From assembly GCA_027487555.1 (NCBI GenBank), contig JAIYDI010000012.1, forward strand, positions 1 to 64,000: a DNA stretch of 64,000 nt, given 5' to 3'. Under the pieces are notes generated by a model, which had not been told where the DNA came from, did not search any database, and was given only the letters and a program-made list of their open reading frames with translations. The translations under genes were made by a program, and so were the position numbers. Positions 1 to 27,089 of the stretch are shown piece by piece. This DNA is from Hyphomicrobiales bacterium. Lineage in GTDB: Bacteria > Pseudomonadota > Alphaproteobacteria > Rhizobiales > Devosiaceae. Positions within the stretch are counted from its first letter, which is position 1. Each line of letters begins with the position of its first letter.

Positions 1-406
1 CGGCAGTTCCACCAACCGAACCATCTTCGAAAGACAAGGTCTTGACCGAAGAGGTACCGATGGTCGTCGCATCAACTGCGAAGGACTGGGTCTTGAAAGA
101 CTTGTCCTGGCGCGCCTGCCGCAAAGCAGACTGCATCGCTTCGACCGTCTTGGTGATGGCACTGAGGCCGTTATCCGCCGCTTCGATCGTCTTGATACCG
201 TTCGACATGGAGTCGAGCAGATTGGCCATGTCCGACGCACGGCTGTTGAGGGCCGACGAGGTGAAGAAGTTCGTCGGGTTGTCGAGAGCGGAGTTGACCT
301 TAAGGCCGGTCGCCAGCCGCTCCTGCGTCTTGGCCATGGTGTTGGCGGTGGACTGCAAGCTCAACAGGTTCGATCGGACGGCTTTGGAAAGATTAATCTC
401 CGGCAT
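1..406 (-). CDS. Flagellin, N-terminal part (cut by window edge)
   Basis: Structural subunit of the flagellar filament, exported through the flagellar type III apparatus. Reading the minus strand from the ATG at 406 gives a peptide starting MPEINLSKAVRSNLLSLQ, followed by TQERLATGLKVNSALDNP and later TIEAADNGLSAITKTVEA, which is the conserved D0/D1 helical start of bacterial flagellins. The reading frame stays open to base 1, so about 135 residues are visible and the C-terminal part lies outside. A Shine-Dalgarno stretch AGAAGGA sits about 8 bases upstream; the ATG at 413 runs into a stop after six codons and was rejected. Two inverted-repeat motifs and scattered TTAA half-sites lie 180-230 bp upstream. 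High confidence in family; which flagellin paralogue it is cannot be told. Confidence 0.93.
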   Translation of the reverse strand, partial: MPEINLSKAVRSNLLSLQSTANTMAKTQERLATGLKVNSALDNPTNFFTSSALNSRASDMANLLDSMSNGIKTIEAADNGLSAITKTVEAMQSALRQARQDKSFKTQSFAVDATTIGTSSVKTLSFEDGSVGGTA

Positions 407-1974: not shown

Positions 1975-2327
1975 GTGCGGTATCCGTTGGTCGAAAGATG
2001 GGGCGGGTAGCCGCTGGCGGCCGCAGATTGGGCGCGTTCCTGCACGGCGAGGAGATCGGTATAGATGGCATGGGCGATACCCACGCCGCCGTCGGCCGCG
2101 ACGGCATCGGACATGCGCTCGGCCTGGATCCCGCGCCAGGTCTCCTCCGCAAAACCGCCGCCCATGGCGGACTCGTCGGACTTGAGCGACGAGAAGATTT
2201 CCTTGAACAGGGTGTTGAGGAACACGCCTTCAAGGTCCTCGGCCTGCTGACGGAGCTTGTGGGCGGTTGCCGCCGGCACCGTGCTGGTAGAGGTGGTGCT
2301 GACGAGGGCAGCGGTCGAGGTCAGCAT
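1971..2327 (-). CDS. flgJ: Rod-binding protein, FlgJ N-terminal domain type
   Basis: A 118-residue protein matching only the rod-binding half of FlgJ; the muramidase half found in enterobacteria is absent, as is usual in alphaproteobacteria (CheL in Caulobacter). The core motif LEGVFLNTLFKEIFSSL is followed by MGGGFAEETWRGIQAERMSDAVA, the two helices typical of the domain. It acts in the periplasm as a cap or scaffold for rod polymerisation. Its start overlaps the flgI stop by one base (TGATG) and its stop overlaps flgN, so the three genes are one tight operon. The missing peptidoglycan hydrolase must be supplied by another protein not seen in this window. Confidence 0.88.
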   Translation of the reverse strand: MLTSTAALVSTTSTSTVPAATAHKLRQQAEDLEGVFLNTLFKEIFSSLKSDESAMGGGFAEETWRGIQAERMSDAVAADGGVGIAHAIYTDLLAVQERAQSAAASGYPPHLSTNGYRT

Positions 2328-3448
2328 CAGAGCACCTGTATCTCGGCCTGCAGCGCGCCCGAGGCCTTGATGGCCTGGAGGATGGCGATCAGGTCGCGCG
2401 GGCTGATGCCGAGCGCATTGAGCCCGTCGACGAGTTGCTGCAGGGAAATGGTATCGTCAACGACGGCCAGACTGCTGTCGGTCTGGTTGACCTGGATGTC
2501 GGTGCGCGGCTGAGTCGCTGTCTGCCCGTTTGAGAGGGCATTGGGCTGTACCACGGTCGGATTCTCGCCGATCGAGACAGTGAGGTTGGACTGCGCGACC
2601 GCCACTTTTGACACTCGCACATCCTGTCCGATGACGATGATACCGGAGTTTTCGTCGACGACGATCTTGGCGGGCAGATCCGTCTCAACCACGAGTTGCT
2701 CGATGTCCGTGAGAAGGTCGACGATATTGCCGTTGAAGTTCTGCGGAAGGTTGAGGCGGACAGTTGCCGGATCCTCGGGGGTGGCGCAGGGGACGCCGAT
2801 GAAATCGTTGATGGCGAGGGCAATACGCCGTGATGTGGTGAGATCGGGATTGCGAAGCGCGAGGCGGAGTGTGCGCTGCGCGCCGAGAACGAAGCCAATC
2901 TCGCGTTCGATCAGCCCACCCGCCGAGATGCGGCCCGTCGTGGGGACCCCGGAGACAATGGAGGCGGCGTCGCCCTGCGCCTTGAAGCCGTTGATGGTAA
3001 CAGAACCCTGCGCGATGGCATAAACTTCGCCATCTGCGCCGAGCAGCGGCGTGACCAGCAGCGTACCGCCCTGGAGGCTCTTGGAATCCCCCAGCGCCGC
3101 GACATTGACATCGAGCCGCGAACCCTGCGTGGCAAAGGCGGGCAGGCTGGCAGTGACCATGACGGCCGCGACATTGGCCGTCCGCATGCTTTCGCCACGC
3201 GTATTTACGCCCAGACGCTCGAGCATGGCTTGCAGGCTCTGCTTGGTGAAGGGGGAATTGTTGAGGCTGTCGCCAGTCCCGTTGAGGCCGACGACCAGGC
3301 CGTAGCCGACAAGCTGGTTGTCGCGCACACCCTCGATCTCGACGATGTCCTTGATGCGCGATGCAGCGGCATGTGCGGGCAAGGCCTCGAGCATGGGCAG
3401 AAGCGCAAACAGCGCTGCGGTGATGAGTCTCAGTGGTCTCGAATGCAT
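2327..3448 (-). CDS. flgI: Flagellar P-ring protein FlgI
   Basis: Forms the P-ring around the flagellar rod in the peptidoglycan layer. The start at 3448 gives about 373 residues with a signal peptide (RPLRLITAALFALLPM, cleavage after LPAHA), followed by SRIKDIVEIEGVRDNQLVGYG and GLNGTGDSLNNSPF, the family hallmark; the end GALQAEIQVL is also typical. An in-frame extension of 36 residues to 3556 lacks secretion features and was rejected; GGGGA lies about 9 bases before the chosen ATG. First gene of flgI-flgJ-flgN, divergent from fliX, with a shared control region carrying a CtrA-type box and two inverted repeats. Confidence 0.96.
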   Translation of the reverse strand: MHSRPLRLITAALFALLPMLEALPAHAAASRIKDIVEIEGVRDNQLVGYGLVVGLNGTGDSLNNSPFTKQSLQAMLERLGVNTRGESMRTANVAAVMVTASLPAFATQGSRLDVNVAALGDSKSLQGGTLLVTPLLGADGEVYAIAQGSVTINGFKAQGDAASIVSGVPTTGRISAGGLIEREIGFVLGAQRTLRLALRNPDLTTSRRIALAINDFIGVPCATPEDPATVRLNLPQNFNGNIVDLLTDIEQLVVETDLPAKIVVDENSGIIVIGQDVRVSKVAVAQSNLTVSIGENPTVVQPNALSNGQTATQPRTDIQVNQTDSSLAVVDDTISLQQLVDGLNALGISPRDLIAILQAIKASGALQAEIQVL

Positions 3449-3594
3449 CTTCACGTCCCCGGTCGGCCAGCCGTCCCCACGGCGGACCACACGAGAACAA
3501 ACAAAGCGATAATCGTGCCAGTTCCGGACACACTGCCCAAAGCGCTGAAAAATCAATGAAATTCAGCGCTGGGACAGGAGTGCGGTGGCATCGC

Positions 3595-3611
3595 CCGGCA
3601 GGTTCTGCCGG
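3595..3611. promoter_or_regulatory. Flagellar inverted-repeat motif, copy 3 (flgI/fliX)
   Basis: CCGGCA-N5-TGCCGG, a perfect 6-bp-arm inverted repeat with the same 5-base spacing as the other copies. It sits between the divergent flgI and fliX operons, six bases before the CtrA-type box. Confidence 0.5.
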
Positions 3612-3616
3612 ATCGA

Positions 3617-3633
3617 TTAACCTTTGCTTAACC
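3617..3633 (+). promoter_or_regulatory. CtrA-type binding site (fliX/flgI)
   Basis: TTAA-N7-TTAACC with exact spacing, the full consensus box of the alphaproteobacterial cell-cycle and motility regulator CtrA. It lies 46 bp before the fliX start and between two inverted repeats. In Caulobacter fliX is a CtrA-dependent class II flagellar gene, so this is a sensible target. Confidence 0.75.
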
Positions 3634-3639
3634 TGTTAG

Positions 3640-3652
3640 GGCAGATTTTGCC
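3640..3652. promoter_or_regulatory. Flagellar inverted-repeat motif, copy 4 (fliX)
   Basis: GGCA-N5-TGCC lying seven bases after the CtrA-type box and 27 bp before the fliX start, a position that would overlap or abut the promoter. The N5 is T-rich, as in copies 1 and 7. Confidence 0.5.
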
Positions 3653-3678
3653 GGGTATCGAAAGGGCGACGAATCCAA

Positions 3679-4104
3679 GTGCGCATCGATCAGGCTTTGA
3701 GGCTACAGGCAGCAGCGAACCGCCCGGGCGTGAACCGCACCGGCGCGGCGGATTTCCTGCTGCCCAGCGCACAGGAGCAGGTTGAGGCGCGTGCCGCCAC
3801 CCCGACACAGGCCATGACCGGCCTCGACTCGCTGCTGGCGCTGCAGGCGGCGAGCCTTGTCGATGCCGATCCTGTGGAGCGGCGGAAGCGAGTGCTACGA
3901 CGCGGTCGCAGCCTGCTGGACCTGCTCGACGGACTGAAGGCCGAACTGCTCGGCGGCAAGGTGAGTGCCGAGAGACTGCAGATGATGATGGGGTTGCTGG
4001 CCGAGGCTGAGGCCGCCGAAGACCCCGGACTTGCCACCACGATGGCCGATATCGACTTGCGGGTACGGGTCGAGCTGGCAAAGCTCGGGCAGTTTCCCCG
4101 CTGA
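3679..4104 (+). CDS. fliX: Flagellar assembly regulator FliX
   Basis: A 141-residue regulator known in Caulobacter to couple class II basal-body assembly to class III/IV gene expression, acting with FlbD. The sequence has the short basic start (MRIDQALRLQ), a low-complexity Ala/Gly linker, then the conserved segment TGLDSLLALQA, a basic RRKRVLRRGRSLLDLLDGLK helix and the C-terminal IDLRVRVELAKLGQ, all typical of FliX. The start is GTG. It is divergent from flgI and 212 bp before dksA, the same neighbourhood as in many alphaproteobacteria. No FlbD gene is visible in this window. Confidence 0.88.
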   Translation: MRIDQALRLQAAANRPGVNRTGAADFLLPSAQEQVEARAATPTQAMTGLDSLLALQAASLVDADPVERRKRVLRRGRSLLDLLDGLKAELLGGKVSAERLQMMMGLLAEAEAAEDPGLATTMADIDLRVRVELAKLGQFPR

Positions 4105-4790: not shown

Positions 4791-4920
4791 GTCGGCCTCG
4801 CTCACGCCACTTTGCTGAATGTGAACTGAACGGCTGACTCACACTGTGGTCAGACCGACCGATCTAGGGTTGGCCAACGTCGCTGAACGGCGCACCAACA
4901 CTGAACCTGAGGGAATGCAA

Positions 4921-5523
4921 ATGAAGACCTTTCTCGCTACCGCCGCCACCCTGATCACGCTCGCTGGCTCCGCCGGGATGGCCCAGGCCATGGATGGCAT
5001 CACGCTTGGCGAACCAGGCTACGGTGGCACCGGCTGCCCCGCCGGCTCCGTGTCGGCTACACTGAGCCCCGACGCGACCTCGCTCAGCCTGCTGTTCGAC
5101 GGCTACCAGGTGGAAGCGGGCGGCGAGACGGGCAAGAAGTTCGACCGCAAGAGCTGCAACATCGCCATCCCCGTACGGGTGCCCCAGGGCTATGCCGTGT
5201 CGGTGCTGGCCATCGACTACCGTGGCTACAACAACTTCCCGGCCGGCGCCAATTCGCAGTTCAACGTCGAGTACTTCTTCGCCGGTGCCAAAGGCCCGAC
5301 CTTCTCGAAGGTGTTCAACGGACCCAAGGATGAGGATTACCTGATCCAGAACAAGCTGACGGCGCAGACCGTCGTCTACTCCGCCTGTGGTGCCGAAGTG
5401 AACCTGCGCACCAATTCGTCGATCCGCGTCACCACCAAGAACAACGCCCAGGCGCTGGCGACGGTGGATAGCCAGGACGTGAGCGCTGCGATTGTTTACC
5501 AGCTTCAGTGGAAGCAGTGCTAA
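4921..5523 (+). CDS. Secreted DUF4360 protein, paralogue 1
   Basis: A 200-residue exported protein. From the ATG at 4921, preceded by GAGGGA at good spacing, there is a clear signal peptide (KTFLATAATLITLAGSAG, cleavage after AQA). The mature part carries the DUF4360 signature: GYGGTGCPAGSVS near its start, LLFDGYQVEAGG, SCNIAIPVRVPQGY, a late YSACGAEVNLRTNSS, and a C-terminal Cys. The four cysteines could make two disulfides. The domain's function is unknown to me; it occurs in secreted proteins. The gene at 7040 is a clear paralogue with all four cysteines in the same motifs, and the beta-barrel gene between them has a related N-terminal domain. An upstream in-frame extension to 4846 has no ribosome site and was rejected. 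Confidence 0.85.
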   Translation: MKTFLATAATLITLAGSAGMAQAMDGITLGEPGYGGTGCPAGSVSATLSPDATSLSLLFDGYQVEAGGETGKKFDRKSCNIAIPVRVPQGYAVSVLAIDYRGYNNFPAGANSQFNVEYFFAGAKGPTFSKVFNGPKDEDYLIQNKLTAQTVVYSACGAEVNLRTNSSIRVTTKNNAQALATVDSQDVSAAIVYQLQWKQC

Positions 5524-5542
5524 ACTGACCCCAATGGACGGC

Positions 5543-5561
5543 GGGGGCCAATGCGGCCCCC
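5543..5561 (+). other. GC-rich hairpin between DUF4360 gene and barrel gene
   Basis: GGGGGCC pairs perfectly with GGCCCCC around a five-base loop. There is no T-run after it, so it may be a partial attenuator or an mRNA 3'-end stabiliser between the first DUF4360 gene and the barrel gene rather than a full terminator. Confidence 0.5.
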
Positions 5562-5585
5562 GTCTTCGAAAGAGGGGTGGGACAG

Positions 5586-6926
5586 ATGAAGTACCTGGTT
5601 TCGGTTGCGGCAATGCCGATTGCCTTGCTGATGTGCTCGACAGCGCTGGCGGACGACCCCTGCAGCGGCACCACGTTCCCTGACGGGCCAACAGACTTCA
5701 ACGTCTTCTTCGACGCGTTCTCTGTGGCGGACAACGACTCGCTCACCTGCAACGTGACTATTCCTGTCCCATTGGCATCTGACTTGTTCGGCGTCTACGT
5801 TGCGGACTATCGCGGTGGCACTTCACCCTTTGGAACCGCGACGCTAACAACCGTCCATAACGGCGTGACCGCAACAACGATTCTTGCGCAGGATGTCAGC
5901 TATACGGTTACCCAGTATGTCGGCACCGCGCCTGGTGGCTCGATTGTTGATGATTTGACTCTTTTCGCCAGTGAAGATGGCAGCAATGACCTTGAGACGG
6001 TCGACTATGCGCTGCTCGGCACGGTGACGCTTGGCGACGTTGAGGAATCGGTTGGCGGGCTCGCCGATGTTGAGGCGGGGATTGTGACGCATCTCAATGC
6101 GACGGCAGGGCTGCTGACGGGCGCAGATGACGCGCCGGATGGGGCGAATTCGGTCGGGCTGATCGGTGCGATCGGTTCCTACACAGTTGGCATCGCCGGA
6201 CACGTGGCGATTGACGAGGGGCTGAGCCTCGATGTCGGCGTCGCGAGCTTCGAGCAGGGGGCGGGCGATCTTGAACTGAGCGGGCTGCTCGCGGCGGCGA
6301 AGCTTCGGTATTTCGCGCCTGATGAGGGCGGGATGCGCTGGTTCGGTGCCTTGGGCCTGACGGGTGCCAAAGCCGATCTCGATATCGCGCGGCACTATGG
6401 CGTGGACTATACCGACCCTGACCTCGCCGACCAGGCGACGATCACGTCGGAGACAGCGGCATCGCTGCTGACGCTTTCTGCCGAGGCCGGTGTGCTGCTG
6501 GCGCCCGATACAGGCAACAGCTTCCGGCTGTCTGGCGAAGTGGCGCAGAGCTGGGTGAATGTCGACGGCTTTGTCGAAGCCTTCTCGGAAGACAATCTCT
6601 TCCCGGTGTCGGTGCCCGACAGAAGCGCAGGCCATACCACTGTGAAGGCCAAGGCCGGATGGACCACGGCGCTGGCGAGCACTATCGACCTGACGCTCTC
6701 AGCAGCGCTGGGCCAGAGCTTCGCCAACGACGATTTCGATGCCGAGGTGCTGTATGTGGGCGACGTGAGCGTCGCCGGGACGTCGGAAGGCTTCGCCGAA
6801 GCCGAAGCCAGACTCGGCTGGGCCGTGGCGGGGAATTCCAACCTCGACCTGTTCGCCAAGGGCAGCTTCGGGACCGCAAGCGGCAGCCATGTGCAGGTGG
6901 GTACCGAGTACCGCCTGAAGTTCTAG
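5586..6926 (+). CDS. DUF4360-like domain fused to outer-membrane beta-barrel
   Basis: A 446-residue protein predicted for the outer membrane. The ATG at 5586 follows GAGGGG and begins a signal peptide (KYLVSVAAMPIALLMCST, cleavage after ALA). Residues about 24-145 resemble the flanking DUF4360 proteins: FNVFFDAFSV, then LTCNVTIPVPLASDLFGVYV and ADYRGGTS align with LLFDGYQV, CNIAIPVRVPQGYAVSVL and IDYRGYNN of the upstream gene, but only two cysteines remain. From about residue 180 the protein alternates polar and hydrophobic residues with aromatic girdles (AKLRYFAPDEGG, GWTTALASTIDLTLSAALGQ) and ends in YRLKF, the terminal Phe of autotransporter-type barrels. I infer a short surface passenger on an integral barrel. 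Whether the passenger is cleaved is unknown. Confidence 0.72.
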   Translation: MKYLVSVAAMPIALLMCSTALADDPCSGTTFPDGPTDFNVFFDAFSVADNDSLTCNVTIPVPLASDLFGVYVADYRGGTSPFGTATLTTVHNGVTATTILAQDVSYTVTQYVGTAPGGSIVDDLTLFASEDGSNDLETVDYALLGTVTLGDVEESVGGLADVEAGIVTHLNATAGLLTGADDAPDGANSVGLIGAIGSYTVGIAGHVAIDEGLSLDVGVASFEQGAGDLELSGLLAAAKLRYFAPDEGGMRWFGALGLTGAKADLDIARHYGVDYTDPDLADQATITSETAASLLTLSAEAGVLLAPDTGNSFRLSGEVAQSWVNVDGFVEAFSEDNLFPVSVPDRSAGHTTVKAKAGWTTALASTIDLTLSAALGQSFANDDFDAEVLYVGDVSVAGTSEGFAEAEARLGWAVAGNSNLDLFAKGSFGTASGSHVQVGTEYRLKF

Positions 6927-7039
6927 GTACGGCAGGAGCGGAATCACTTTCTCGACTTCCTTGCCGAACCGATTGATTTTCAAGGGCTTCCGAAATCGGT
7001 AGCCCGCAATCGCCGGAAGGATCCGGAGGAGTGTGTGCC

Positions 7040-7621
7040 GTGAAGATCGCCGCTATTGGACTGAGCCTCGTACTGGCGCTGGGGTTTGCCGCCCCAGCCG
7101 ACGCCGCGAGCATCAAGCTCGGCGCGCCCGGCTATGGCGGCACGGGCTGTCCCGGCGGCACGGCAAGTGTCGCGACATCGGGAAGCGCAATCACCGTGAA
7201 GTTCTCGGCTTATCGCGTCGCCGCCGGCGGCTCGACAGGCAAGAGCTTCGACCGCAAGGCCTGCGCGCTCTCGATCCCCGTGATGGTGCCGAAGGGCCAG
7301 GCTGTCGCGATCGTGGGGGTGGATTTCACCGGCACGAGCAACCTGCCCTCGGGCACCAGCGCGACGTTCAAGCTCGAGCAGTTCCTGGTGGGCGGCAAGG
7401 GCCCCGTGGTGGAAAAGACCGTCAGCGGCCCGGCCAAGGGCAAGTTCACCACCAGTTCGGCGGCGGCTTTGAGTTGGTCCGCGTGCGGCGCGAGCACGGT
7501 GCTGCGCACCAATTCCAGCCTCATCGTCAAGACCTCGGGCGGCAAGGCGGCCTCGGCCTCGATCCGCTCGCAGGATGTGGGCACGACGATCGTCTACCGG
7601 CTGAAGTACAAGAGCTGCTGA
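7040..7621 (+). CDS. Secreted DUF4360 protein, paralogue 2
   Basis: A 193-residue exported protein. The GTG at 7040 is nine bases after GGAGGA; the earlier GTG at 7031 directly touches that ribosome site and was rejected. A signal peptide (KIAAIGLSLVLALGFAAPA, cleavage after ADA) leads into GYGGTGCPGGTAS, ITVKFSAYRVAAGGSTGKSF, CALSIPVMVPKGQA, SACGASTVLRTNSS and a C-terminal KSC: the same motifs, order and four cysteines as the protein encoded at 4921. The two probably arose by duplication. Function unknown; the shared architecture with the barrel protein between them suggests a common surface or periplasmic role. Confidence 0.85.
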   Translation: MKIAAIGLSLVLALGFAAPADAASIKLGAPGYGGTGCPGGTASVATSGSAITVKFSAYRVAAGGSTGKSFDRKACALSIPVMVPKGQAVAIVGVDFTGTSNLPSGTSATFKLEQFLVGGKGPVVEKTVSGPAKGKFTTSSAAALSWSACGASTVLRTNSSLIVKTSGGKAASASIRSQDVGTTIVYRLKYKSC

Positions 7622-7842
7622 GCGCTCCCACGAAATTCCGCCCGGGCTGCACGAAAACTGCAAACCGGGCGGGCAGGGTGCGGCCATGCACACGACATCG
7701 CTTGCCGCACTTCTCAAGTCTCCCGCCCGCCGCCTCCCGGACCGGCTGTCGAATGACGGCTGGTGGCTTGTGGAGCCGCACAGCGGCGGGGACAGGAAGA
7801 CGTCGCGCGCTGCCGTCTGCGAGACCCAGATGGAGACGCCGA

Positions 7843-9366
7843 TTGACCGACCTCTCGAAACCGAGCCCGCTCACCGCGAGTGACAGGCCGCAGCCGCCGC
7901 TGCGGGCGTTGTTGCTTGTCGCCGTGGCTATTGCAGCCGATCTGCTCAGCTTTGGCCATTGGGGCCTTGGTACGGTATTGAGCCTGCTGCTGATCGTGGT
8001 GGCGAGCGTGACTGCGGCCCGACCCCGCCCGCGCCCCATGGCTGGAGCTTTGGCGCTGGGTGTGCTTGGTCTGCTGCCGATGCTGGAGGCGCCGGAAGAA
8101 CCCGGCAGCGTGATCGTCGCGCTGTTCGGGCTTGGCATGGCCGCTGTGCTGGCAAGCGGCGACTGGTCCGGTCGGGTCGAACGGCTCGCCGGGGTGGCGG
8201 TGCGGTTCGCACTCGTCGCGCCCGGGCGGCTGCTCGCGGATGTGGTGCGCGCGGCCATCGACATGCGGGTCGGCGGGATCAAGGCGCGCCTTTGGAAGTC
8301 CCTGCTGCTCTGGGGGCTGCCGGTGGGGTTGGGGATCGTGTTCGTGCTGCTGTTTTCGGCCGCCAACCCGCTGATCGAGACCGCATTGCGGCTATTGACG
8401 CCGGACGGAGCGAAGCTCGACCAGGCAATCGCGCATGGGCTGTTCATGGCGGTGGTCGCGGCCTTTGCCTGGCCGTTCATCGTGCCGAAACTGTTGACCT
8501 ATCGCGCCGGCGCACAGATGTACGGACCTTGGCAGCCGACGCTCATCGGGCAGGTTTCCGGGCGCGACGTGGCGCTGAGGGCGCTGATTCTGTTCAACCT
8601 GCTGTTCGCGGTGCAGACCGGGCTCGACCTGGTCTATCTGTGGGGCGGTGTGAAGCTACCGGACGGCATGACCTATGCCGACTATGCGCATCGCGGCGCC
8701 TACCCGCTGATCGTGACAGCACTGCTTGCCGGGGCTTTCGTGCTGGTGGCGCTGCGTCCGGGAAGCCCGACATCGGCCGACCGGCTGGTTCGAGCGCTGG
8801 TCTATGCCTTCATCGCGCAGAACGTGCTGCTGGTGATCTCTTCGATCCTGAGGCTCGACCTCTATGTCGATGTGTATGGGCTGACGCGGCTCAGGCTCGC
8901 GGCCGGGCTGTGGATGGGCCTCGTCGCGCTGGGGCTGGTGCTGATCCTCGTACGCATTCGACTTGGGCGATCCAATGCCTGGTTGATGGGCAGCAATCTC
9001 CTCGCGGCGCTCATGATGCTGTTCGGCGCCAGCGTCGTCGATCTCGACCGAGTGGTCGCGGGGTTCAACCTCGCCCATGCCGTCGAGCCAGGCACAGGCG
9101 CCGTGCCGCTGCACGTGGCCTATCTCGAGGAATTGGGTCCGAGCATCATTCCTGATCTCGACAGGGCGCTGGCGGACGACAAGCTTGCGCCCATCGCTCC
9201 GCGTCTCGACGTGCCCGCGGTCCGGGCTGAACTGATGGCGCTGAGGACCTACATGGCGTCGCGCGTGCAGCATTCGACGGATTGGCGCGACTGGAACTGG
9301 CGCGCTGCGCGCCTCAGGGATTATCTTGCCACGACCCCGCGTGCCCCGGAGCCCACTCGGCCGTGA
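7843..9366 (+). CDS. DUF4173-type multi-pass membrane protein
   Basis: A 507-residue integral inner-membrane protein. I place the start at TTG 7843, seven bases after GGAG; earlier in-frame sequence runs through the DUF4360 gene in another frame. Around ten hydrophobic segments are visible, for example ALLLVAVAIAADLLSFG, VLSLLLIVVASVTAA, LLWGLPVGLGIVFVLLF, ALILFNLLFAVQTGLDLVYLW and LWMGLVALGLVLILV. The segment QTGLDLVYLWGGVKLPDGM is typical of DUF4173 (a relative of DUF4153). A soluble C-terminal tail ends with a Trp-rich TDWRDWNWRAARLRDYLA. The stop overlaps the response regulator start (GTGA), so the protein is translationally coupled to a two-component system and may be its sensor partner or effector. 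Confidence 0.75.
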   Translation: MTDLSKPSPLTASDRPQPPLRALLLVAVAIAADLLSFGHWGLGTVLSLLLIVVASVTAARPRPRPMAGALALGVLGLLPMLEAPEEPGSVIVALFGLGMAAVLASGDWSGRVERLAGVAVRFALVAPGRLLADVVRAAIDMRVGGIKARLWKSLLLWGLPVGLGIVFVLLFSAANPLIETALRLLTPDGAKLDQAIAHGLFMAVVAAFAWPFIVPKLLTYRAGAQMYGPWQPTLIGQVSGRDVALRALILFNLLFAVQTGLDLVYLWGGVKLPDGMTYADYAHRGAYPLIVTALLAGAFVLVALRPGSPTSADRLVRALVYAFIAQNVLLVISSILRLDLYVDVYGLTRLRLAAGLWMGLVALGLVLILVRIRLGRSNAWLMGSNLLAALMMLFGASVVDLDRVVAGFNLAHAVEPGTGAVPLHVAYLEELGPSIIPDLDRALADDKLAPIAPRLDVPAVRAELMALRTYMASRVQHSTDWRDWNWRAARLRDYLATTPRAPEPTRP

Positions 9367-10043
9367 CCCTTCGCATCCTGATTGCCGACGACGAGCCGCA
9401 TATCCGCGATGTCATCGCCTTTGCACTCGAACGGGCGGGAATGGAGGTGGCGCTGGCCCGGACCGGCACCGAGGCGCTACGGCGGGCGAAGCAGGGCGAT
9501 TGCGCGCTCGCGGTGCTGGATATCGGGTTGCCGGAGATGGATGGGCTCGAGGTGTGCCGGCAGCTACGGCGCAGCTCGGACCTGCCGATCCTGTTCCTCA
9601 CGGCCCGCAGCGACGAAATCGACCGGGTACTGGGGCTCGAAATCGGCGGTGACGACTATGTGACCAAGCCCTTCAGCCCGCGCGAACTTGTGGCGCGGGT
9701 CAGCGCGATCCTCAGGCGCGGGCGGGCCGCGCCGGCAGCCGACGTCATGCGGCATGGCGGGCTGCTGCTCGACCCGGCAGCGCGAACCCTGCGTTATGAC
9801 GGGCAGCTGGTGGACCTGACGGCGCTTGAGTTTGCCATTGTGGAGGCGCTGCTGAAGCGGCCGGGTCATGTGCTGACGCGCGACATGCTGATTGACGCTG
9901 CCTATGGTCCGACGATGCATGTGGCCGAGCGCACAGTTGACAGCCATGTGCGCAATATCCGCGGCAAGCTGCGGCTCGTGGGCGGCGGCGAGGTGATCGA
10001 GACCGTGCATTCGGTGGGCTTCAAGCTCGCCGAGGCGGGCTGA
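9363..10043 (+). CDS. OmpR-family response regulator
   Basis: A 226-residue DNA-binding response regulator. The receiver domain has the acidic pocket D9-D10-E11 and the phosphoacceptor D53 in VLDIGLPEMDG, the Thr/Ser switch in LFLTARS, and Lys in DDYVTKPF. A winged-helix domain follows, with LTALEFAIVEALLKRPGHVLT and the recognition helix ERTVDSHVRNIRGKL. GTG at 9363 overlaps the stop of the DUF4173 gene, and its own stop overlaps the kinase start by one base, so the three genes form one coupled unit. The gene order recalls CreB-CreC systems, but the signal and targets are unknown. Confidence 0.93.
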   Translation: MTLRILIADDEPHIRDVIAFALERAGMEVALARTGTEALRRAKQGDCALAVLDIGLPEMDGLEVCRQLRRSSDLPILFLTARSDEIDRVLGLEIGGDDYVTKPFSPRELVARVSAILRRGRAAPAADVMRHGGLLLDPAARTLRYDGQLVDLTALEFAIVEALLKRPGHVLTRDMLIDAAYGPTMHVAERTVDSHVRNIRGKLRLVGGGEVIETVHSVGFKLAEAG

Positions 10044-11035
10044 TGGTCGAGATCCGCCGCAAGTGGCGGCCGCGACTCGGGCTCGTCGTGCTGGGCGTGC
10101 TGCTGGCGGTGCTGGTGGTCGATACCGCCATCGTGCTTGGCTTCCGGCTGTTCGACCAGGCCGGCGCGCATATGGGTTGGGTGGAACTCGGCGCTTTGGC
10201 GCTCGCCACGGTGCTGACGCTGACCATCGGGCTTGTGCTGGGGCGAACGCTGACCGGCCCGATCGAGGACCTCGTAAAACTGGCGCAGGCGATTGGCAAT
10301 GGTGGGCGCGCCGCGATTGTGGCGCCGCCGCGGCAGGGCACCGAGGAAGTGGCCCGGCTGACCGAGAGCCTGATGGCGCTCGCGACGCGGCTTGTCGACC
10401 GCAACGACTATCTCGCAGGGTTCGCCGCCCACGTGTCGCATGAGCTGAAATCGCCGCTGACCGCGATCCGCGGCGCGGCAGAACTGCTGCGCGACAATCA
10501 GATGAGCCCTGTCGAGCGCCAGCGCTTCCTCGACCAGATCATCAGCGAAAGCGGCAGGTTGGCGCGGTTGCTCGACCGGCTGCGCGAACTGGCGCGGGCT
10601 GAGGGCGCGCAGCCGGTCGGCACCACATCACTTGCCGGCTTGTTGCCGGCACTCAGATCGCGCAGTGCGAGGCTGGATTTGCATGTCACCGGCGGCGCAG
10701 ACCTGGTCATGCCGCTCGCGGAGGAAACCGCGACAATCGTCTTCGGGTACCTCATCGACAACTCCGCTGAGCACGGTGCGAGACGGGTGACGCTCGATGT
10801 TGCGATACGGGGCGACGCACTTTCGGCCATAGTTGCCGACGATGGGCCAGGCGTGAGTGCGGGTAACCGCGACCGCGTCTTCGAGCCGTTCTTCACGACG
10901 CGGCGCGAAGGAGGCGGCACCGGCCTCGGCCTTGGGATTGTCCGCGCGCTTCTCGGTGCCTCGGGCGGAACGATCACGCTGCTGCCGGACGCTCCGGGAC
11001 AGGGCGCGCGGTTCGAAATCCGGTTGCCCGCCTGA
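10043..11035 (+). CDS. Sensor histidine kinase, partner of the upstream regulator
   Basis: A 330-residue membrane kinase. Two transmembrane helices (about residues 11-33 and 47-69) leave only about a dozen periplasmic residues, so it has no real external sensor domain. A HAMP linker follows (LTGPIEDLVKLAQAI), then the dimerisation helix with the phosphorylated H133 in HVSHELKSPL, and an ATPase domain with N-box DNSAEHGA, G1 box VADDGPGVS, F box FEPFFTTRR and G2 box GGTGLGLGIVRA. With so small an external loop it may sense the membrane itself or the DUF4173 protein encoded two genes upstream. It starts one base inside the regulator's stop codon. Confidence 0.93.
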   Translation: MVEIRRKWRPRLGLVVLGVLLAVLVVDTAIVLGFRLFDQAGAHMGWVELGALALATVLTLTIGLVLGRTLTGPIEDLVKLAQAIGNGGRAAIVAPPRQGTEEVARLTESLMALATRLVDRNDYLAGFAAHVSHELKSPLTAIRGAAELLRDNQMSPVERQRFLDQIISESGRLARLLDRLRELARAEGAQPVGTTSLAGLLPALRSRSARLDLHVTGGADLVMPLAEETATIVFGYLIDNSAEHGARRVTLDVAIRGDALSAIVADDGPGVSAGNRDRVFEPFFTTRREGGGTGLGLGIVRALLGASGGTITLLPDAPGQGARFEIRLPA

Positions 11036-11142
11036 TCCTGCACGTTGGGGATGCTGTTTCTATACGACACCAAAGCTTACATTCCGGCAGGTAGAGTGTT
11101 CCCACACAGGGCAAGCAGCCCAAGAGAAACAGAAGGCGTAGA

Positions 11143-11766
11143 ATGCAGCATCCAGAGAGCGTGTCGTCCGGCAACCCATGCCCCGTGCTTCGGGCGCTGG
11201 TGGCGCACGGACTCGCCAATGACCAGTTCGAGCCGGTGGGGCGCCTCGCCTCGACCATCAGCCGCATGGCGGCCGAGAGCGATGGCGGCAAGAAGCTGCC
11301 GACGAGCCTCGTGGCGCTGATCGCGGTGACAGCCAACGGGCTGAGCCCTGCGACCGTGCTGCGCAATGCGCGCGAGGGTGTGCATCTGAGCGGGCTGCGG
11401 CGCGGGCCGCTGGACAAGCAGGGCGCCGGATCGCGCGTGCTGGACCAGCACGGGCAGGTCGATGAGGAACAGCTCGACCGGTTGGCGGGCTTCGGCTGCG
11501 ACAAGCGCATGGCCGACGGCGGCGCGGAATTGGGGCTCGACGCGTCGGAGGTCGCCCAATTCCTCAAGGCGAACTGGGAGCGCGCCAAGGGCCGGCGCCG
11601 GGTGATCGACCGGGGCTTGATGCGCGGCGAATGGCCGGTGCTGCTCGAAGTGCTGGGCAAGACCGGCCCCGACGGGCGCTATCTCGCCTTCGCCGATATC
11701 CGTCGGCTGGTGGTGGAGCAGGCGCTTCCCGAGCGGCTGACCTCGCGGCTCGGGAAGGTCGCTTGA
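11143..11766 (+). CDS. Uncharacterised protein with peroxidase-like CP motif
   Basis: A 207-residue soluble protein without signal peptide. Near the N terminus is GNPCPVLRALVAHGL, similar to the Pro-Cys-Pro haem-ligand segment of chloroperoxidase-type haem peroxidases (usual form PCPALNxLANHG). Other blocks are LVALIAVTANGLSPATVLRN, VHLSGLRRGPLDKQGAG and AELGLDASEVAQFLKANWERA. I cannot confirm a haem peroxidase fold, because the distal Glu/His region is not obvious. The gene lies 107 bp after the kinase on the same strand and could be part of its regulon. An upstream RBS-like AGAAGG precedes the ATG. Treat the enzyme call as a hint only. Confidence 0.55.
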   Translation: MQHPESVSSGNPCPVLRALVAHGLANDQFEPVGRLASTISRMAAESDGGKKLPTSLVALIAVTANGLSPATVLRNAREGVHLSGLRRGPLDKQGAGSRVLDQHGQVDEEQLDRLAGFGCDKRMADGGAELGLDASEVAQFLKANWERAKGRRRVIDRGLMRGEWPVLLEVLGKTGPDGRYLAFADIRRLVVEQALPERLTSRLGKVA

Positions 11767-11782
11767 TGGGTCCGGGCGCGCC

Positions 11783-13291
11783 TTACCCGAGGTAACGCTG
11801 GGTGAGGTGGGCCTCGAAGTACTTTGCATCGAGCTTCTCGCCAGTGGCGCGGATGAGCAGATCCGGCGTCGAGTAGCGGCTCGCGACCGACCAGATTTTC
11901 TCGCGCCGCCAGTCGTTGATGGCGACGAAGCGGCCATGGCGCACATCGTCATCGAGGCCCGGCAGGTCGCGCTTCATCGCGGCCTTCAGCTGCGCGGCAA
12001 CCATGGCCCCGAGCGTGTAGGACGGGAAATAACCGATGGCGCCCGAGGGCCAGTGCACATCCTGCATCGGGCCGTTCTTCATGTCGGTGATGGTTGAGAG
12101 GCCGAGATATTCGCGCATCTTCGCGTCCCAGATTTCGGGGACGTCTGACGGGCGCACCGAGCCGTCGATGAGGCCGGACTCGATCTCGAAGCGCAGGATG
12201 ACATGCAGCGGATAGGTGCACTCGTCGGCATCGACGCGGATGAGGCCGGGCTCGACCTCAAGCACATGGGCAAGCACATCGTCGAGATCCCAGCCGGCGA
12301 CGGCATCGGCCCCGAGGGTTTCGCGGACGTGGGGCAAGGCCCATTCCCAGAATTCCGGGGCGCAGCCGATCTGCTTTTCCTGGAAGAGACTCTGGCTCTC
12401 GTGGATGGTCATGCCGCGGGCGCGGCCCGAGGGCCAATGCGTCCAGGCCTGCGGCAGGTTCTGCTCGTAAAGGCCATGTCCGGTTTCGTGGAGGATGCCC
12501 ATGAGCGAGGAGAGGAATTCGCTTTCGGTGTAACGGGTGGTCATCCGCACGTCGGTGGGCACGCCGCCGCAGAAGGGGTGATGCGAGACATCGAGGCGGC
12601 CATGGCTGAAATCGAAGCCGATGGCTTCCATCATCACGAGGCCGAGGGCCTTCTGCTTTTCGATCGCGAAGGGGGCGTTATAGGGTTTCAACGGGCGGCG
12701 GGCGCGGCGCTCGGCCTGCCTGTCGATGGCGCGCGGGATGAAATCCTTGAGGAAGCTCTTGAGGCTGGCGAACACCGGGGCGATGTCGGCGGCGCGGTTG
12801 CCCGGATCATACTGGTCCATCATCGCGTCATAGGGCGAAAGTCCCAGCGCATCGGCGCGCAGCTGCGCCTCCTCGCGGGCAAGGGCCACTAAGCCTTCGA
12901 AGGCGGGGAGGAAGCCCGTCCAGTCGCCTGCGGGACGGAGTTCGCGCCAGAGCTGCTCGGAGCGGACGCGGGCATTCACCTGCCGCGTGACGAATTCCGA
13001 CGAGAGGCAGGTCATGTTGGTATGGGACCGGCGGAACTCGCGGATGGCGGCGGACTGATCGTCGTCGAGCGGCTCGGATTCGGCGGCGCTGAGCCAGTCG
13101 CCGACTTCGGGGGCCGTCGCCATCTCGTGGTACATGCCGGCGAGGGTGCCGAGGGTTTCGGCGCGCTTTTCGCCGCCGCCAGAGGGCATCATCACGGCTT
13201 CGTCGACGCCCAGCATGGCTTGGGCATGTTCGATGGCTTCAAGCCTGCGGGCGAGGGTGTCGAGGCGGGAGAAGGCGGTATTGGCGGACAT
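11783..13291 (-). CDS. M32 (Taq-type) metallocarboxypeptidase
   Basis: A 502-residue cytoplasmic zinc carboxypeptidase that removes C-terminal residues from peptides. The zinc motif HETGH is at residues 268-272 in GILHETGHGLYEQNLP; the family motifs SHHPFCGGVPTDVRMTTRY, just before it, and HESQSLFQEKQIG, after it, are present. Length fits the family (about 500). The start was set at ATG 13291 because the sequence MSANTAFSRLDTLARRL matches the usual N terminus; an extension upstream runs through repeat DNA and is not protein-like. It is convergent with the peroxidase-motif gene and upstream of it lies a block of repeats. Confidence 0.93.
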   Translation of the reverse strand: MSANTAFSRLDTLARRLEAIEHAQAMLGVDEAVMMPSGGGEKRAETLGTLAGMYHEMATAPEVGDWLSAAESEPLDDDQSAAIREFRRSHTNMTCLSSEFVTRQVNARVRSEQLWRELRPAGDWTGFLPAFEGLVALAREEAQLRADALGLSPYDAMMDQYDPGNRAADIAPVFASLKSFLKDFIPRAIDRQAERRARRPLKPYNAPFAIEKQKALGLVMMEAIGFDFSHGRLDVSHHPFCGGVPTDVRMTTRYTESEFLSSLMGILHETGHGLYEQNLPQAWTHWPSGRARGMTIHESQSLFQEKQIGCAPEFWEWALPHVRETLGADAVAGWDLDDVLAHVLEVEPGLIRVDADECTYPLHVILRFEIESGLIDGSVRPSDVPEIWDAKMREYLGLSTITDMKNGPMQDVHWPSGAIGYFPSYTLGAMVAAQLKAAMKRDLPGLDDDVRHGRFVAINDWRREKIWSVASRYSTPDLLIRATGEKLDAKYFEAHLTQRYLG

Positions 13292-13346
13292 AGCTCGGTG
13301 GGCTCGGTTGGGACTGTGCGATCTAGCGAATAGCGAATGGCGAATG

Positions 13347-13421
13347 GCGAATAGGGACGGGTCGAAGGCCGCGCCGGTATCTGTAAATGCGGTCCTTCTC
13401 CATTCGCTACTCCCTATTCGC
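13347..13421. repeat. Inverted GCGAATAGGGA repeat with short tandem units
   Basis: GCGAATAGGGA (13347-13357) is matched by its exact reverse complement TCCCTATTCGC at 13411-13421. The left arm is preceded by tandem GCGAATRGC units from about 13326. It lies between the M32 gene start and the first 78-bp direct repeat. It looks like a non-coding dispersed repeat; no function is evident. Confidence 0.6.
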
Positions 13422-13432
13422 ACCGTGCAAAA

Positions 13433-13510
13433 GGGGAAAGGGCGCAGCCGGGGAAGCTGCGCCCTTGTGTGGATGGTCTCCTCCTGGATCGCATCCGGGT
13501 CGCCCGCCGC
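13433..13510. repeat. 78-bp direct repeat, left copy
   Basis: Matches 14634-14711 at 77 of 78 positions (T13500 versus C14701). It contains a perfect 9-bp-stem hairpin GGGCGCAGC/GCTGCGCCC (13440-13464). The two copies bracket the AT-richer orphan gene at 13668-14369. The right copy lies just after flgH and probably served as its terminator, so the left copy may be a duplicate created when the orphan segment arrived. Confidence 0.9.
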
Positions 13511-13667
13511 ACTAGTTGAGGGCGTCGGTCGCGGTACCCGAGTAATTGTCGCCAGTTTGAGCAAGGGTAATTTAGGCCCCACGTAAGCCGCCGCTATTGT
13601 ACAGAGTGGGTTGCATTTTCCAGTGCTGAAGCGGAAACATATGGCGGCATTATTGCCCTGAAAACCC

Positions 13668-14369
13668 CTATCTTTCCGACTCAGCTATCACACCTATAAC
13701 CATCGAGAAGATTCGATCCGTGTACTTGTGAATTTCCTCCAGTTCACTTGGCATGAGCGCTCCAATAGTGATAGCGGCATTCGCAGGAAGCTCGCCACAG
13801 CAGCGAGACCGTAGCATATAAATCGTGCAGTCATTATCGAAGCAAATCTGCCAAGCCGCTATTCCTTTAGAGTCCATATTAATAGAGACATTAGGCGTAT
13901 CATTAAGGTGAGGCACGCACACCGAAACTTGTTCTGGAAGATTGAACCAGTAACCGGAGATATTACCTAATTCTTTACGTGCGGACATTATTGCGTCTGA
14001 TATTGTCTGCGCGGAACAAAGTGTACTAAGGCCAACTTCAGGATACAAGGTCCATGTTACCGGGACACCAATTGTCCGGTCATATGCCGTGGCATTTTGC
14101 AGCGCTCCCGCACCGGCATCTAGCTCCGCCATGACGGGCCAGTCGCAAGATATCGATAAACAATCCGCAAATACCTGTCGTGGATCAAGCGGCACCGCAA
14201 CGTCACCGTTCGACCTGGCCGCTAGAATTTCATATTTCTGCATCGGAAACAGAATTCTATCGGCCGCGGCGGCCTGATACACGAGACCATAATAAAGGAA
14301 CAAGAGAAGAAGTGTAATCGTGACTTGCAGAAGGTGAGGGAAACGTATCTGGACAAGGTCGAGTGGCAT
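13668..14369 (-). CDS. Orphan membrane-anchored protein, AT-richer, likely acquired
   Basis: A 233-residue protein I do not recognise. It has a short cytoplasmic start, one transmembrane helix at about residues 11-30 (HLLQVTITLLLLFLYYGLVY), and then a presumably periplasmic domain rich in aromatic residues and cysteines (DCLSISCDWP, STLCSAQT, SVCVPHLND, WQICFDNDCTIYMLRSRCC). At least eight cysteines suggest disulfides. Base composition and codon use (ATA, TTA, AAT, many A/T third positions) differ sharply from all neighbours, and the gene sits alone between two 78-bp direct repeats, which points to horizontal acquisition. No recombinase or integrase is present. Its function is unknown. Confidence 0.7.
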   Translation of the reverse strand: MPLDLVQIRFPHLLQVTITLLLLFLYYGLVYQAAAADRILFPMQKYEILAARSNGDVAVPLDPRQVFADCLSISCDWPVMAELDAGAGALQNATAYDRTIGVPVTWTLYPEVGLSTLCSAQTISDAIMSARKELGNISGYWFNLPEQVSVCVPHLNDTPNVSINMDSKGIAAWQICFDNDCTIYMLRSRCCGELPANAAITIGALMPSELEEIHKYTDRIFSMVIGVIAESER

Positions 14370-14633
14370 TTATCTGTAAATTCCCGTTCTAATGTGATCA
14401 ATTAGTGAGGGCCGCGAAGCGCTTGGAAGTCATTTATTGTTTGACGCTGCTATGTTGCGGAATGACGAATTTTGCTGAGGCCGATTTGGCTGCAACGCCC
14501 TTCTGCCCTTGAGTGAATTGGTGCTCAAAGGGAGGATACTGGGTTTCTTTACGTCACCGGACACCCCCTCATCCGTCTCGGCCTTCCGCCGAGGCGCCGA
14601 GAATTCGGTGACACTAACCGCAAAACACAGAAT

Positions 14634-14711
14634 GGGGAAAGGGCGCAGCCGGGGAAGCTGCGCCCTTGTGTGGATGGTCTCCTCCTGGATCGCATCCGGG
14701 CCGCCCGCCGC
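14634..14711. repeat. 78-bp direct repeat, right copy (flgH terminator region)
   Basis: Second copy of the 13433 repeat. Read on the minus strand, it begins 44 bp after the flgH stop and its hairpin GGGCGCAGC/GCTGCGCCC is followed by CTTTCCCC, so it can act as the transcription terminator of the flgF-flgG-flgA-flgH operon. Confidence 0.85.
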
Positions 14712-18028: not shown

Positions 18029-18155
18029 GGCGCAAAGTCCCCGGTTAATTCCCCGAACCAGCCAACTTCCCCAAGCCGGCAGGCTCGCCATTAACACTGC
18101 AGAAACCATGCCAAGCAGGTTTGTAAGCAAAATCAATTATTTATAGGGAGTGCTC

Positions 18156-18178
18156 ACTCGGCGAAAATTGCCGAGTGC
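18156..18178. promoter_or_regulatory. Flagellar inverted-repeat motif, copy 5 (flgF/fliL)
   Basis: CACTCGGC and GCCGAGTG form perfect 8-bp arms around a seven-base A+T-rich centre; the core GGCG-N5-TGCC is one mismatch from the other copies. It lies on the flgF side of the flgF/fliL divergent control region. Confidence 0.5.
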
Positions 18179-18200
18179 AACACCTCGGTAACTTCGACCC

Positions 18201-18213
18201 GGCAAAAACTGCC
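18201..18213. promoter_or_regulatory. Flagellar inverted-repeat motif, copy 6 (fliL)
   Basis: GGCA-N5-TGCC with an A-rich spacer, flanked by CCC and CGG. It is 107 bp before fliL and 17 bp before a CtrA-like box, mirroring the arrangement at fliX and flgB. Confidence 0.5.
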
Positions 18214-18229
18214 CGGTTTGGCACAGATT

Positions 18230-18245
18230 GTAACCAATCGTTAAC
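18230..18245 (+). promoter_or_regulatory. CtrA-like box, imperfect (fliL)
   Basis: GTAA-N7-TTAAC: the second half-site and the spacing match the CtrA consensus, the first half has one mismatch. It is 75 bp before the fliL start. Caulobacter fliL is CtrA-controlled, which makes this plausible. Confidence 0.5.
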
Positions 18246-18319
18246 TCTCTGCGCATTAGCTCGATGTCAGGTGTCGGAATCGCCGGTTCAGCGCCGGCTT
18301 CCCTGGGGGTTTCGAGAAA

Positions 18320-26522: not shown

Positions 26523-26631
26523 CGCCGCCTCCCAGCCGCGAGCCCGCCTGACCGGCGGCGCGGCATCATTTGCCTAGTGTGTCACGCCGGAGCGGATTTT
26601 GCGAGGTCCGGACCCGCAATGGCACAGGTCG

Positions 26632-26648
26632 TTAAGACATGGTTAACC
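26632..26648 (+). promoter_or_regulatory. CtrA-type binding site (flgB operon)
   Basis: TTAA-N7-TTAACC, full match with exact spacing, 49 bp before the flgB start. It is three bases from the inverted repeat at 26652. It probably drives the flgB-flgC-fliE-fliQ-fliR-flhB operon. Confidence 0.75.
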
Positions 26649-26651
26649 ATT

Positions 26652-26672
26652 ACTGGGCAGGATTTGCCCAGT
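26652..26672. promoter_or_regulatory. Flagellar inverted-repeat motif, copy 7 (flgB)
   Basis: ACTGGGCA-N5-TGCCCAGT, the most symmetrical copy, with perfect 8-bp arms. It lies 24 bp before the flgB start and directly after the CtrA-type box. Confidence 0.55.
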
Positions 26673-26696
26673 AACGCCGAATCCGGTGACGGAAAA

Positions 26697-27089
26697 ATGA
26701 AGCTGGCCCTCTTCGACGCCCTCACCGACAAGATGCGCTGGCACCAGACTCGCCAGCTGCTTCTGTCACAGAATGTCGCCAATGCCGAGACGCCGGGCTT
26801 CAAAGGGCAGGACCTGAAGAGCTTCACCCTCGAGCAGACTGCCGGCCCAAGCATCGCTCTATCGACCGTGGCCACGCAGAGGGGGCACATTGTGGCCCGC
26901 GCGAGCAGTGGCGGCGCATTCGGTGCACAGCAGATGAACGGCTTCGAGGTGACGCCCGAGGGCAACGCCGTGACACTCGAGGACGAGATGATGAAGGTCA
27001 CCACCAACCAGATGGACTACCAGGCGGTGACCACAATCTACCAGCGCTCGATGAAGCTGTTGAAGACGGCGCTTGGCCGGTCGGCGTGA
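26697..27089 (+). CDS. flgB: Flagellar rod protein FlgB
   Basis: Proximal rod subunit, 130 residues. From the ATG at 26697 the protein reads MKLALFDALTDKMRWHQTRQ, then LSQNVANAETPGFKGQDLK (rod-family N-terminal motif), and ends VTTIYQRSMKLLKTALGRS. Earlier in-frame sequence runs through the control region and overlaps fliO, so it is not used. First gene of a six-gene export and rod operon; flgC starts 11 bp downstream. Confidence 0.95.
   Translation: MKLALFDALTDKMRWHQTRQLLLSQNVANAETPGFKGQDLKSFTLEQTAGPSIALSTVATQRGHIVARASSGGAFGAQQMNGFEVTPEGNAVTLEDEMMKVTTNQMDYQAVTTIYQRSMKLLKTALGRSA

Follow-up and report, generated by a model that had tools for sequence, protein, structure and literature searches.

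A predicted FlbD operator at flagellar promoters of a Devosiaceae bacterium and its paired arrangement around a CtrA-type box at fliX/flgI

The inverted repeat GGCA-GRWTY-TGCC, nearly palindromic around a 5-base spacer, is very probably the binding site and operator of FlbD, the flagellar activator of the NtrC family, through which FlbD would activate class III sigma-54 promoters and would probably repress class II promoters. The positions of the sites, their conservation, their promoter context and the presence of FlbD, FliX and sigma-54 were computed here, and from these we infer FlbD as the binding protein, the sign of regulation and a competition with CtrA. The DNA analysed is a 64,000-nucleotide stretch of a Hyphomicrobiales bacterium of the Devosiaceae (the window), together with the rest of its genome, a 4.53-Mb draft in 52 contigs, and the genomes of relatives. 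A sequence-only reading of the window had likened the repeat to the ftr/FlbD sites of Caulobacter, possibly acting with FliX, and this proposal is supported by the findings that FlbD, FliX and sigma-54 are all encoded in the genome and that the sites recur at flagellar promoters.

Copies of the repeat in flagellar intergenic DNA

The window contains the flagellar genes flagellin, flgI, fliX, flgH, flgA, flgG, flgF and fliL, and further fliM, fliP, flgC, fliE, fliR and flhB. The FliO match is borderline (22.2 bits, cut-off 22), and FlgB, which has no Pfam match, was named by its position before FlgC and FliE. Separately, the four frames scanned in the roughly 10-kb stretch from fliX-dksA to flgH (4900-14700) gave no flagellar match; they correspond to DUF4360, DUF4153, an M32 carboxypeptidase and one frame without a match.

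The exact GGCA-N5-TGCC core occurs 11 times in the window against 2.5 expected (shuffle mean), and six of these copies are located within four flagellar intergenic regions (407-1026, 3449-3678, 18029-18319 and 26523-26699) that together comprise 1318 bp. When the dinucleotides of this 1318 bp were shuffled, the mean was 0.042 exact copies and the maximum was two, and none of the 20,000 shuffles reached six, so that a chance origin of the flagellar copies was rejected. The repeat in flagellar intergenic DNA is real. The remaining 62,682 bp of the window contain the other five exact copies (5026, 11170, 22090, 41047 and 62553), each within an open frame of coding-type G+C pattern. All seven sites of the sequence-only reading were recovered, some with coordinates moved by 1-4 bases; its five exact copies correspond to 627-639, 3597-3609, 3640-3652, 18201-18213 and 26656-26668, and its two one-mismatch copies to 585-597 and 18160-18172. 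The sixth exact copy, at 26562-26574, had been overlooked. Since a sigma-54 element requires GG-N10-GC and only 8 bases separate GG from GC in the repeat, we rejected the idea that the repeat had been mistaken for -24/-12 promoters, which are present as separate elements nearby.

The flagellin gene, truncated by the window edge (2-406, minus strand; PF00669, E 4.3e-13), is preceded by the copy at 585-597, which carries one core mismatch and lies 42 bp from the exact copy at 627-639. No sigma-54 element with up to three mismatches was found between the gene and this pair. The only -24/-12-like match in the interval 407-700 is located at 664-680 on the minus strand, beyond the pair on the far side from the gene, so that the flagellin sites would either follow that promoter or work as repressor sites.

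Between flgF and fliL, the copy at 18160-18172 has one core mismatch and that at 18201-18213 is exact. A sigma-54 type promoter for flgF (TTGGCATGGTTTCTGCA, 18098-18114, minus strand) was recognised with two mismatches, and a CtrA-like box (GTAACCAATCGTTAA, 18230-18244) with one mismatch to TTAA-N7-TTAA is placed on the fliL side, outside the palindrome pair. At fliO/flgB, the two sites (26562-26574 and 26656-26668) are both exact and have a full CtrA-type box between them (TTAAGACATGGTTAA, 26632-26646, exact TTAA-N7-TTAA). Since the flgB start is at 26697, the flgB palindrome was counted as intergenic even though a long open frame overlaps the site. In three of three relatives a counterpart of the 26562 copy was found with one mismatch, 95 bp from the flgB-proximal site, the distance here being 94 bp.

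The fliX/flgI region and its conservation

The flgI gene (2327-3448, minus strand; PF02119, E 2.3e-135) and the fliX gene (3679-4104, plus strand; PF10768, E 2.8e-30, 106 bits, cut-off 25) are separated by two predicted FlbD sites. The FliX protein also matches five NCBIfam FliX models, all below their own cut-offs. Palindrome 1 (3597-3609) has the exact core within the extended form CCGGCA-N5-TGCCGG, and palindrome 2 (3640-3652) has the exact core. The perfect CtrA box that the sequence-only reading had placed between them was confirmed as TTAA-N7-TTAA at 3617-3631 (TTAACCTTTGCTTAA). A -24/-12 promoter of sigma-54 type faces flgI (CTGGCACGATTATCGCT, 3505-3521, minus strand, one mismatch).

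Comparison of orthologous fliX promoters and of flgB promoters in related species had been proposed as a check on the repeat. The named fliX loci are the best 80 of 328 loci found and come mostly from Devosia and its neighbours, Pelagibacterium and Maritalea among them. An exact copy is present upstream of the gene at 73 of these loci (two or more at 26, a single one at 47) and absent at 7; before flgB an exact copy is present in three of three relatives. A palindrome pair 41-44 bp apart is found at 65 of the 80 named fliX loci, with spacings of 43 bp in 47, 42 bp in 10, 44 bp in 4 and 41 bp in 4. All 80 of these loci have flgI divergent from fliX and a sigma-54 promoter with up to two mismatches between the flgI start and fliX, compared with a base-shuffle mean of 0.88 of 80 in 450 bp. 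When we aligned the 47 named loci with a 43-bp pair together with the window, the 5-base spacer of palindrome 2 reached 1.80 bits compared with about 0.2 in the flanks. Because these loci had been picked by their palindrome cores, the informative columns are those of the spacers, the CtrA box and the flanks, and among these the spacer and CtrA-box columns are conserved while the flanks are not.

The full CtrA box lies inside the pair at 58 of the 65 named fliX loci that have the pair, and at flgB it recurs in three of three relatives. This arrangement could suggest that the sites form an auxiliary operator within the CtrA layer, bound by CtrA itself or by a co-working factor. We consider this very unlikely, since at flgF the copies stand in a sigma-54 setting without a full CtrA box (sigma-54 promoter in nine of nine relatives, CtrA box in none of nine), and the sites recur together with sigma-54 promoters at a gene of unknown function on contig C33 (see below), where the count covered sites and sigma-54 promoters.

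The two-palindrome pattern was present in 21 of 61 genomes, and its reversed control in none. Of its 28 places, 20 have a fliX match no more than 250 bp away, and three of the eight remaining places are the fliL/flgF promoter. Outside the order, where the best-scoring 30 of 81 fliX matches were taken as one locus for each of 30 other families, an exact copy was found within 350 bp upstream of fliX at 21 loci, nine loci were without an exact copy, and a sigma-54 promoter with up to two mismatches was found at 22. Across the class, the pair spacings gave no support for helical phasing: 9 of the 16 class-wide spacings are near a multiple of 10.5, and the Rayleigh test gave R 0.39 with p of about 0.10. 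Some adjacent pairs, moreover, have a spacing of 14 bp, at fliK, at the C33 gene and at flgF in relatives.

Promoter context and distribution across the genome

At flgI, flgF, flgE, fliK and the C33 gene, the sites are located roughly 45-120 bp upstream of a -24/-12 promoter. Measured from the start of the palindrome to the promoter, the distances are 76 and 119 bp for flgI, 46 and 87 bp for flgF, 85 bp for flgE, and 63 and 77 bp for both fliK and the C33 gene. A GGCA-N5-TGCC repeat could in principle fold as a 4-base stem with a 5-base loop and thus act as a small hairpin in leader transcripts, but the copies at flgI, flgF, flgE and fliK are upstream of the -24/-12 element and hence outside that transcript, which makes such a role in RNA exceedingly improbable.

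The relatives in which individual promoters were examined had been chosen by hand among genomes that carry FliX or FlbD on a large contig; 20 FlbD-carrying genomes were used for fliF and fliG, and 10 FliX-carrying genomes for the other genes. An exact site precedes fliF in 17 of 20 relatives, flgI in 10 of 10, flgF in nine of nine, fliL in eight of eight and flgE in two of three, in addition to the flgB copies described above. At the operon-internal genes fliM, flgG, flgC, flhB, flgH, fliG, fliP and fliR of the relatives, by comparison, none of 59 has an exact site upstream. The promoters that carry the site differ in context. The sigma-54 promoter of flgF is kept in nine of nine relatives, whereas no sigma-54 element with up to two mismatches was found at fliF (0 of 20), flgB (0 of 3) or fliL (0 of 8). 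Judging from these contexts with and without sigma-54 elements, the sites split into putative class III enhancers and probable class II repressor sites. A full CtrA box was found before fliF in one of 20 relatives, before fliL in none of eight and before flgB in three of three, and its rarity at fliF and fliL means that the link to CtrA is firm only for fliX and flgB.

We suggest that at the rod, ring and hook genes (flgI, flgF, flgE and fliK-flgD) and at the C33 gene, bound FlbD would serve as an enhancer for sigma-54, becoming active after FliX has signalled completion of the early basal body. At the early promoters of fliX, fliF, flgB and fliL, most of which carry CtrA-type boxes and where the searches made turned up no sigma-54 promoter for the gene itself, FlbD would probably turn expression off by keeping CtrA or RNA polymerase from the DNA. 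The pair at fliX/flgI would serve both directions, with one operon turned on and the other off. More tentatively, and as a possibility that we would not yet favour, this region could be a hard-wired toggle, in which two FlbD dimers, spaced by about four turns of the helix and flanking the CtrA box, would exclude CtrA, silence fliX and fire the divergent flgI promoter. As fliX encodes FlbD's own partner, its silencing would close a FliX-FlbD feedback loop. If true, the toggle would be one element that converts early into middle flagellar expression, and a composite operator kept at near-fixed spacing in the Devosiaceae.

Outside the window, the same site stands before fliF, flgE and fliK-flgD, all on other contigs. 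The exact site before fliF is at L013:8334, and no sigma-54 promoter was found at the fliF promoter of this genome. Within the fliF promoter region (L013:8271-8334), a variant site on the reverse strand (GGTAATTTTTGCC) was also observed, 63 bp from the exact copy; all 20 of 20 relatives have this variant or a close one 60-78 bp ahead of fliF, with the same 13 letters in 15. The site before fliK-flgD is a tandem palindrome pair 14 bp apart (L013:12388/12402). An assignment of this pair to mnmA was dropped, since the sigma-54 element faces fliK-flgD.

The C33 gene (L075:3633-4721, equal to G000:C33:5635-6720, minus strand) encodes 362 amino acids with no Pfam match above cut-off; its sigma-54 promoter is perfect and lies at a distance of 63 bp from a predicted FlbD site. 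Its relatives were found at 20 loci in 19 of the 61 genomes, with its own genome counted among them. An exact site was found within 300 bp upstream at 18 of these loci and a sigma-54 promoter with up to two mismatches at 17; in the three loci without the promoter, the gene start was extrapolated and may be misplaced. This recurrence suggests that the gene is likely a candidate new member of the flagellar regulon.

The bare 4+4 core has 209 copies in the genome, compared with 103 for its reversed control and with a chance level of about 178 per genome as extrapolated from the shuffle mean of the window. As 209 copies are close to the chance level, we rejected the bare core as a genome-wide marker of flagellar genes. 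The sequence-only reading had held that an equal frequency in coding or unrelated DNA would speak against the motif, and this objection applies to the bare core with its 209 copies; the site in its conserved promoter setting is not touched by it, with none of the 59 operon-internal genes carrying the site and with enrichment at flagellar promoters.

The extended pattern GGCAGRWTYTGCC has eight exact places in the genome, namely fliX (two), flgB, fliF, flgE, the C33 gene, an EF-hand gene on C7 and a coding frame on C22. Since this pattern was composed after the window, fliF and flgE sites were known, only the C7, C22 and C33 matches are independent, and of these three, two are intergenic and one is coding. 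With one mismatch, GGCAGRWTYTGCC gave 76 forward and 57 reverse matches, compared with 8 and 6 in the reversed control. When 20 one-mismatch copies of the extended consensus (L023-L042) were examined, 18 were found in coding DNA, indicating that promoter context is needed to recognise the site. As an observation of its own, the FlbD-type palindrome of the EF-hand protein gene (L073:5294-6031, G000:C7, minus strand) is located at 6273, about 240 bp ahead of the gene, and the DNA between palindrome and gene contains a full CtrA-type box (TTAATGAAAAGTTAA).

Seven strict -24/-12 matches were found in the genome against five in the reversed control, and the exact palindrome is upstream of two of the seven, those of flgI and the C33 gene. 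Other sigma-54 promoters are thus mostly without the site, as expected if other activators serve them.

FlbD, FliX and comparison with known systems

FlbD is encoded in the genome (NCBIfam equivalog NF050807, 806 bits, cut-off 750), GAFTGA is seen in its translation, and its gene clusters with fliF, fliG and flhA on another contig than the window genes. The sigma-54 gene (rpoN) is present as well. The genome has eight strong Sigma54_activat matches including FlbD, plus four weaker ones, which would allow the sites to belong to another flagellar regulator, either another NtrC-type activator or a so far unrecognised repressor, with FlbD binding elsewhere. This seems unlikely to us, because FlbD is the only one of these in the fliF cluster, with the nearest other Sigma54_activat match on the contig more than 100 kb away, and because the target set of class II and class III promoters fits the action of FlbD in Caulobacter, as far as the available accounts describe it. 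FlbD remains the binding protein that we prefer.

Among the 61 genomes of relatives, FliX was found in 46 and FlbD (E up to 1e-100) in 47; 44 genomes have both, 12 have neither, two have FliX alone and three have FlbD alone. Only three of the 12 double-negative genomes have a recognisable fliF, so that most of them may simply lack this flagellum, and the co-occurrence is weak evidence. As a tiny control, the three fliF genes of these FlbD-less genomes have an exact copy within 400 bp in none of three cases and a one-mismatch copy in one of three.

The predicted FlbD-site consensus would apply to Devosia-like bacteria, in which flagellar regulons could be predicted from sequence. Among 30 other alphaproteobacterial families, taken as the best-scoring 30 of 81 matches, 21 show it at fliX. 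Moreover, a CtrA box between two FlbD-type sites makes a hand-over from CtrA to FlbD testable.

NtrC sites have a 5-base centre, and their half-site differs from GGCA/TGCC. The sites described here are likewise dyads with a 5-base centre, often paired, and roughly 45-120 bp upstream of -24/-12 elements, as are the enhancers of the NtrC family. Unlike NtrC enhancers, they have the half-site GGCA/TGCC and are also used at promoters without sigma-54 elements.

The closest likeness in role is to the ftr elements of Caulobacter crescentus, which in the available accounts are likewise sites of a sigma-54 activator at early (fliF) and later flagellar genes. In the accessible part of PMC3930126, FlbD at ftr4, upstream of fliF, represses fliF, and in that of PMC3096577, reporters in a fliX deletion were consistent with FlbD repressing fliF and activating fliK. 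The two systems thus share, by role, the FliX partner, the repression of fliF and the activation of fliK (PMC3096577, PMC3930126, as far as accessible). The accessible parts of these two Caulobacter accounts (PMC3096577, PMC3930126) mention no fixed pair enclosing a CtrA box at fliX/flgI.

Divergent fliO and flgB promoters with one common CtrA site are mentioned in the accessible part of PMC6180460, which also states that flbD is absent in the Rhodobacteraceae of its figure 6. In the window, too, a full CtrA-type box separates fliO from flgB, but here, in contrast to the case described in the accessible part of PMC6180460, FlbD-type palindromes flank the box. Among the literature matches listed, as far as their text was available, no report of FlbD sites in Devosia was found. 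The type of regulator is known from Caulobacter, while the conserved FlbD-CtrA-FlbD layout and the linked C33 gene look new.
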